Below, piece after piece: positions 29,433 through 29,970 of a DNA stretch of 64,000 nt. The notes below the pieces were generated by a model. The model was not told the DNA's origin, searched no databases, and worked only from the letters and a program-made list of their open reading frames with translations. Location of the stretch: positions 434,001-498,000 of the forward strand of contig NZ_JBCFYD010000001.1 of the NCBI RefSeq assembly GCF_038594945.1. The letters are read 5' to 3'. Each line of letters starts with the position of its first letter. The stretch's first letter is position 1. Source of the DNA: Fodinibius sp. Rm-B-1B1-1 (GTDB lineage Bacteria > Bacteroidota > Rhodothermia > Balneolales > Balneolaceae). Made by a program: the position numbers and the translations under genes.

Positions 29433-29529
29433 TTCTATCTCCAAATTGTCAGGCAACCCTTTCTGTGGAATTGCTGTATAGGTAAGAAACGATCGTTAGC
29501 AATCTAACCTATAATTATGGGGATATATT

Positions 29530-29970
29530 ATGCTTATCAACAGCCATCGAAATAAACTAATGACCATTGTGGTATCGCTATTTTTAGTGTTTGCGGGATG
29601 CGATTCGTCGAGTACGGATTCAGATTCCGACGGTAACAATAATAATGGCGACCAAAACCAATCAGCAAGCTTTGAAAGTGGCACTATTGGTCCCGGCGAA
29701 ACGTTTAGTTACACTTTTGAAGAAGAGGAAACCGTTGATTATTACTGTACGATCCATGCCCCGGATATGACGGGAGAAATTGTTGTAACAGCTGATGCTG
29801 AAGCCGTGGAGCGAGATACTGTTTCTATGGAAAATGACCAGTTTAACCCGTCGAGCCTTGAGGTTGCCCCTAATACCGAAGTGGTGTGGGTAAATAACCA
29901 AGAGCATAATCATGATATTAAAACCGGCACCCCTTCATCTAATGATGATGGAGGAGATCCTGACTATTAA
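29530..29970 (+). CDS. Cupredoxin-like lipoprotein with circularly permuted motif order
   Basis: The product is 146 aa. A signal peptide ends at the lipobox FAGC (C24), followed by a Ser/Asp/Asn-rich linker. Residues 47-87 are what is normally the C-terminal half of a plastocyanin-like domain (ESGTIGPGETFSYTF, then YYCTIHAPDM with Cys73, His76 and Met80). Residues 97-135 are what is normally the N-terminal half (VSMENDQFNPSSLEV, VVWVNNQEHNHDI with His128). The four type 1 copper ligands are present, but the halves are swapped. The chain ends (GGDPDY) where the canonical domain would continue into FESGTIGPG. It probably binds copper at the cell surface and transfers electrons. A truncated tandem protein is the alternative. 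Confidence 0.82.
   Translation: MLINSHRNKLMTIVVSLFLVFAGCDSSSTDSDSDGNNNNGDQNQSASFESGTIGPGETFSYTFEEEETVDYYCTIHAPDMTGEIVVTADAEAVERDTVSMENDQFNPSSLEVAPNTEVVWVNNQEHNHDIKTGTPSSNDDGGDPDY

Follow-up and report, generated by a model that had tools for sequence, protein, structure and literature searches.

A cupredoxin lipoprotein of Fodinibius with its two halves in reversed order, probably a natural circular permutant

Here, we describe a lipoprotein of Fodinibius that probably arose in nature by circular permutation of a cupredoxin of the plastocyanin/halocyanin type and that likely serves as a type 1 copper, one-electron carrier made under the direction of an ECF sigma factor. The gene lies in a stretch of 64,000 nucleotides from the genome of Fodinibius sp. 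Rm-B-1B1-1, which was analysed as a whole and is called the window below (Table 1). The protein departs from the canonical strand order of the Copper-bind (PF00127) superfamily in that its second half comes before its first, and we therefore class it as a circularly permuted variant and not as a plastocyanin. Comparison of sequences establishes the reversed order itself, its conservation, the single clade formed by its carriers, the linker between the halves and the promoter-like element that the genes share.

Table 1. Features of the permuted cupredoxin gene and its upstream region, in positions of the window
Feature	Position	Strand	Basis or remark
Promoter-like element GGCAACC-N16-TGTATAG	29452..29481	+	Read as an ECF-sigma promoter; shared upstream occurrence
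Permuted cupredoxin lipoprotein gene, 146 aa, ATG start	29530..29970	+	ORF, Pfam and alignment
Signal peptide and lipobox FAGC, Cys24	29530..29601	+	By eye
Asp/Asn/Ser low-complexity spacer, residues 25-47	29602..29670	+	Sequence
Canonical second half, residues 48-86, comes first	29671..29787	+	Copper-bind profile 44-98; model strands
Ligand Cys73	29746-29748	+	In canonical second half
Ligand His76	29755-29757	+	In canonical second half
Ligand Met80	29767-29769	+	In canonical second half
9-residue linker TADAEAVER, old C-terminus to old N-terminus	29788..29814	+	Constant length; rotation point
Canonical first half, residues 96-135, comes second	29815..29934	+	Cupredoxin_1 profile 17-57; model strands
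Ligand His128	29911-29913	+	In canonical first half
Gly/Asp/Asn tail, residues 136-146, last residue Tyr, then stop codon	29935..29970	+	Model pLDDT; alignment

The cupredoxin domain comprises about 100 residues and follows a leader and a spacer. A leader ending in Cys and resembling that of the window's protein was recognized by eye in all nine intact permuted copies, and the length of the Asp/Asn/Ser spacer varies among the aligned relatives. Cys73, His76 and Met80 lie near the start of the chain and His128 near its end; together they make up a type 1 ligand set, which the first-pass annotation had placed at exactly these positions and which the alignment finds unchanged in 9/9 intact copies. 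Equally constant is the distance from the old C-terminal strand to the invariant DTV in the former first strand, which is nine residues in every intact copy. The copper loop C-x2-H-x3-M (29746-29769 of the window) does not vary among the nine copies. In the canonical cupredoxins of the order, the Cys-to-Met loop reads CxxHxxM or CxxHxxxxM at 13/13 loci; outside the order, the canonical proteins L067 and L068 also have the x3 spacing between His and Met. The new C-terminal tail is 8-16 residues long, and its last residue is Tyr in all nine intact copies. A terminal Tyr (29965-29967 in the window) after a Gly/Asp/Asn tail is also found in 7 of the 13 canonical cupredoxins of the order (L014, L016, L017, L020, L021, L024 and L027), so the tail of the permuted proteins may derive from the end of the ancestral gene; it is possibly a C-terminal signal or an ancestral tail.

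Several lines of evidence support the reversed order. First, linear profiles match the protein in two pieces. Pfam Copper-bind matches with 44.6 bits (cut-off 21.2), its best stretch pairing residues 34-86 with profile positions 44-98, and Cupredoxin_1 pairs residues 90-128 with profile positions 17-57 at 16.7 bits, below its cut-off of 27. Because the two profile ranges are inverted along the chain, the halves stand in reversed order. The same picture emerged from a phmmer comparison with the plastocyanin 1bxu of the PDB, in which residues 104-135 correspond to chain positions 15-47 and residues 50-86 to positions 53-90. Second, we scored every circular rotation of each intact permuted domain, omitting the frameshifted copy L010, against a profile of 17 canonical relatives, 13 from the order and 4 from outside it. 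This profile excludes L023, L025, L026, L028, L030 and L031, which were judged by eye to be multi-domain proteins or cupredoxins of another kind. In 9/9 permuted domains, one rotation raised the score from 45.6-58.6 to 85.0-108.5 bits, the best cut point fell inside the linker, and the rotated domain gave a single match running from profile positions 11-13 to 100-101 of 103. The 17 canonical domains, scored as controls against leave-one-out profiles, gained on average 0.7 and at most 3.3 bits on rotation. Third, the rejoined domain of the window reached 91.4 bits compared to at most 63.5 bits in 200 controls in which the real second half was combined with a shuffled first half, which excludes chance. 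Against Pfam Copper-bind, the rejoined domain likewise gives one continuous match (profile positions 13-98 of 99), with a small gain from rejoining, from 41.7 to 48.2 bits for the window and from 39.3 to 41.4 bits for L012. Thus, the claim of the first-pass annotation that the halves are reversed within one lipoprotein is borne out by Pfam, by the alignment to 1bxu and by the rotation test.

The new chain ends can be located by comparison with the canonical protein L016, which reads without a break through TSGSNGQHDGLFDSGNIAPDG at the place where the permuted chain has its ends; the permuted chain ends in TGTPSSNDDGGDPDY and starts with FESGTIGPGE. In plastocyanin strand names, we take this place to be the loop that connects strands four and five of the canonical fold. 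By eye, no remnant of "missing" halves was seen in three frames of the 100 nt that flank the gene on each side.

A profile search found the reversed-order gene in 10 of 244 genomes of the class, so that the search for the same order in relatives proposed in the first-pass annotation adds nine genomes to that of the window. Nine of the ten are among the 12 genomes of Fodinibius, the window's included, while 3/12 are without the gene, and one copy (L012) sits in another genus of the Balneolaceae. Among 92 genomes of the family, 26 have a match at E <= 1e-3; open reading frames were read for all of these except two weak matches, showing the reversed order in ten, and the remaining matches examined are canonical or different kinds of cupredoxin. 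A profile built from the nine intact permuted proteins, with the frameshifted L010 left out, scored the ten permuted genes at 160-242 bits and the next best sequence at no more than 54.4 bits over 128 genomes of the order and 244 of the class. In 394 genomes of the phylum, no further permuted copy was found at E <= 1e-8 among the candidate places scored in each genome (up to ten); 20 genomes of this sample matched, of which 8 are permuted ones already counted, and in the six from outside the family the match covers one half only, with an order that reads as canonical. A plasmid collection held no match to the permuted gene at E <= 1e-3, no permuted relative was confirmed among viral contigs, and the two relatives returned by a scan of genome contigs were ones that had already been found in the genus.

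The permuted copies appear to share a single origin and to have been kept by selection. When rejoined permuted domains and canonical ones were placed in one tree, from which L010 was omitted and in which L023, L026 and L073 served as outside rows only, the nine intact permuted copies form one branch with support of 100/99, a grouping to which the shared linker residues at the ends of the rejoined rows add somewhat. Rooted at the midpoint, the tree places this branch inside a 99/99 group of the order's canonical rows that is itself unresolved. L023 and L026 form a long branch placed inside the group with the permuted rows, and L073 has a very long branch in an implausible position. The tree fits a single origin of the permuted genes. 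Over the domain, dN/dS is 0.057-0.127 in 9 of 10 pairs among five copies and the tenth pair is saturated; these values are rough because dS often exceeds 1. In L010 (G009), a single-base change within a run of G splits the permuted gene; this may reflect decay, an error in sequencing or a slippery site.

These data bear on the alternative that the gene is a deletion remnant of a two-domain cupredoxin that encodes no working domain. Duplication followed by loss of the outer halves would yield exactly the reversed order, and one copy, L010, is indeed frameshifted; against this stand the retention of the gene in ten genomes of two genera, the invariant ligands and linker, the signs of purifying selection and the lack of a two-domain ancestor among the canonical loci read, and we regard a remnant as very improbable. 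A truncated tandem gene or a frameshift artefact was likewise rejected as a description of the present state, given the conserved order, ligands and linker and the low dN/dS. The first-pass annotation had named a deletion derivative of a two-domain protein as its alternative. As an account of the gene as it now stands, this does not agree with the conserved order, ligands and linker or with the dN/dS values; as history, it may well be right, because the likeliest route to the present gene is a tandem duplication after which the outer halves were lost.

If the protein is a circular permutant, its two halves should fold together. AlphaFold2 gave no usable fold for the full-length protein with three close sequences (pLDDT 35.2). 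In a second run, the input for residues 45-146 included 18 fragments of plastocyanin-like proteins encoded on viral contigs, ten from the first half and eight from the second and none covering both, which were picked to align each half with its counterpart; a set of 41 rows was rejected because first-half fragments aligned over the second half. Since the rows were chosen by half, the resulting model is not independent of the half assignment; the row set supplies the identity of each half and not their pairing. The five models span pLDDT 68.6-90.9, and the best of them, which was used here, predicts one all-beta domain of nine strands with a pLDDT of 90.9 and a pTM of 0.81. Counting residue 45 as model residue 1, the strands of the second half are 5-9, 14-19, 23-28 and 37-42, and those of the first half 51-57, 60-62, 65-68, 72-78 and 84-88; model residues 94-102 have a pLDDT below 50 and form a floppy tail. 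Thus, the second of two attempts returned a confident single domain and not two separate half domains, and this model, together with the conserved order, supports the proposal of the first-pass annotation that one permuted domain carries a complete type 1 ligand set.

Foldseek returned no match to the model at E <= 0.001 in the PDB and viral libraries; for the PDB, this is what we would expect from a sequential aligner should such a chain order be uncommon. VIA-align 2, applied to 852 chains as a re-examination of Foldseek's own candidates only, ranked 5syd, a circularly permutated azurin, first (rmsd 2.6, 80 residues, 22% identity) with a Z of 5.9, which is modest and lies in a range that, according to the tool, may reflect just a common arrangement. 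The aligned range ends at model residue 81, short of His128 (model residue 84). The second match was a de novo design (Z 4.8, 64 residues), and no canonical cupredoxin was among the best 50 matches listed.

We suggest that the nine-residue linker ties the old C-terminal strand to the old N-terminal strand, that the chain closes as one beta sandwich in which His128 would join Cys73, His76 and Met80 in one type 1 site, and that the new N-terminus bears the lipid anchor. The order of the chain by itself leaves the pairing of the halves undecided, and the halves of two chains might instead combine into a domain-swapped, obligate dimer in which each of two barrels, with its own copper site, would take one half from each chain. 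The shortness of the linker speaks for such a dimer. However, the monomer is modelled with confidence, and nine residues are enough if the canonical termini are close. In plastocyanin, the termini are close together, both at the pole opposite the copper. We consider the dimer unlikely and a closed monomer the better reading of the permuted chain.

The element listed in Table 1 precedes 10/10 permuted genes with 0 or 1 mismatch, including the copy in the other genus despite its different flanking genes. The exact element has a single copy in the genome of the window. In the family, 16 of 92 genomes contain it, at 19 places altogether, compared to 1 for a reversed control; these places are nine permuted genes, four ECF sigma genes, four lipoproteins read as CHRD, two of which were checked with Pfam, a lipoprotein that matches no Pfam family and a site with no clear gene. 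An orthologue of the ECF sigma gene is present in 12/12 genomes of the genus, each time with the element upstream at 0-2 mismatches and in one case with a 17-base spacer. With up to 2 mismatches allowed, sites in the window's genome are at chance level (18 compared to 27 for the reversed pattern), and we therefore read no wider regulon from the element. From their sequences, the element-marked genes make up an apparent ECF sigma regulon. It would be a small one, comprising the sigma factor, a putative anti-sigma factor, a cytochrome or cupredoxin, YceI, DUF5777, CHRD lipoproteins and the permuted cupredoxin.

The ECF operon of the window's genome (L143, at G000:C2:978388) encodes, in this order, the sigma factor, the putative anti-sigma factor, a PSCyt1-type cytochrome, YceI and DUF5777. 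The gene that follows the sigma gene (L143:1091-2401) is called anti-sigma by position, and a C-terminal stretch of its product resembles outer-membrane beta-barrel domains at scores under the Pfam cut-offs. A PSCyt1 gene precedes YceI also in G016 and G061, a canonical cupredoxin gene (L014) takes this place in G073, where the element stands before the operon, and no long open reading frame was seen in the corresponding slot of G010. Among the 13 canonical cupredoxin loci, YceI lies beside 12 and DUF5777 beside 11, within short stretches, and the putative anti-sigma gene is beside 5, with at least 1 kb of upstream sequence available at several of the others. By tblastn at E <= 1e-4, nine stretches of 10-18 kb around permuted genes contain no YceI, DUF5777, anti-sigma or ECF gene. 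Thus, in the window's genome a c-type cytochrome fills the cupredoxin slot of the operon, and the permuted cupredoxin is encoded elsewhere behind the same element. The element common to the permuted genes and the ECF operon makes the permuted gene look like a relocated and rearranged member of the regulon.

Within the genus, the location of the permuted gene is fixed, with two FAD oxidase genes to its left at 8/8 other loci and, as judged by eye, RecN- and RluD-like genes to its right at 7/8. The copy in the other genus (L012; region L078, G034:C1:636000-654000) lies in a heavy-metal export island, among genes for two P-type ATPases, one with a heavy-metal domain, a CusB/HlyD-type protein, an outer-membrane efflux protein (OEP), an ArsP-type permease, a DUF302 protein and a cytochrome c. 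The window's genome encodes two more Copper-bind proteins side by side (L076, G000:C1:596500-599500), preceded by a gene that by eye looks SCO1-type.

We suggest that the permuted cupredoxin is most likely a membrane-tethered, one-electron carrier on the envelope side, that the ECF sigma factor drives its production on demand, and that it would act next to the cytochrome produced by the same regulon. Alternatively, the permuted fold might bind a metal, be it copper or another, in order to sense, store or buffer it and not to transfer electrons, a role that would suit the copy in the heavy-metal export island and the presence of the non-redox YceI and CHRD proteins among the genes that share the element or the operon. 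By contrast, the four type 1 ligands are unchanged in 9/9 copies and are the same in the canonical relatives, and the alternative occupant of the operon slot, in the window's genome as in G016 and G061, is the PSCyt1 cytochrome, a one-electron carrier. We consider such a changed role rather unlikely.

The standard route to circular permutation begins with a tandem duplication and ends with the loss of the outer halves, and we consider it the likeliest one here. The canonical cupredoxin of the regulon would have been duplicated in tandem in an ancestor within the Balneolaceae, and the outer halves would then have been lost while the promoter, the signal peptide and perhaps the C-terminal tail were kept. 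Altogether, we think it likely that the outcome is a natural, selected and functional permuted type 1 copper protein, in which the anchor has moved and the copper site and the sigma control have been retained. With its anchor moved, the protein may possibly offer its copper to another partner.

Blue copper proteins serve as a standard model for how a scaffold controls the geometry and redox potential of a metal, and permutation in the laboratory has already been used to test this control. A permutant that occurs in nature alongside canonical relatives of the same family would provide a paired evolutionary experiment, in which the ligands are the same, the regulon is apparently the same, and the chain order and the anchor point differ. 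Linear profiles break the permuted cupredoxin into two partial matches, and further natural permutants may therefore hide in annotated genomes. If our reading is correct, evolution has made, in the salt-loving bacteria of the genus Fodinibius, a rearrangement otherwise known from an engineered azurin.

The closest known proteins are the canonical cupredoxin lipoproteins of the Balneolaceae (e.g., L016, L013 and L021), to which both halves of the permuted protein are homologous. They share with it the His-Cys-His-Met ligands, a lipoprotein-like leader and acidic or Gly-rich linkers, and one of them, L014 in G073, has before its operon the same promoter-like element as the permuted genes; they differ in having the usual order of the halves and, at 12 of the 13 loci in the order, an adjacent YceI gene. 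The nearest structural kind is the circularly permutated azurin cpAz (PDB 5syd), reportedly engineered by Yu et al. in 2017. Both are circularly permuted cupredoxins; however, cpAz is a laboratory construct made from azurin, while the protein described here is natural and plastocyanin-type, with its own linker and lipid anchor. To our knowledge, permutation in the cupredoxin family is otherwise known only from the engineered azurin. The open-licence literature, which leaves most subscription journals outside its scope, yielded no natural permuted cupredoxin. The excerpts of a paper on a Fodinibius species (PMC9909488) contain passages on copper but not the words plastocyanin, cupredoxin or halocyanin, and those of PMC12051499, PMC4532836 and PMC5734314 hold nothing that bears on the question. 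A natural parallel is found in another fold. The circularly permuted imelysin-like proteins of the Bacteroidales (PIBO), as described in PMC3143127, are all-helical iron-uptake proteins with a fold unrelated to that of cupredoxins; like the permuted cupredoxin, these natural, lineage-restricted permutants, known from crystal structures, have canonical relatives in the same bacterial order.
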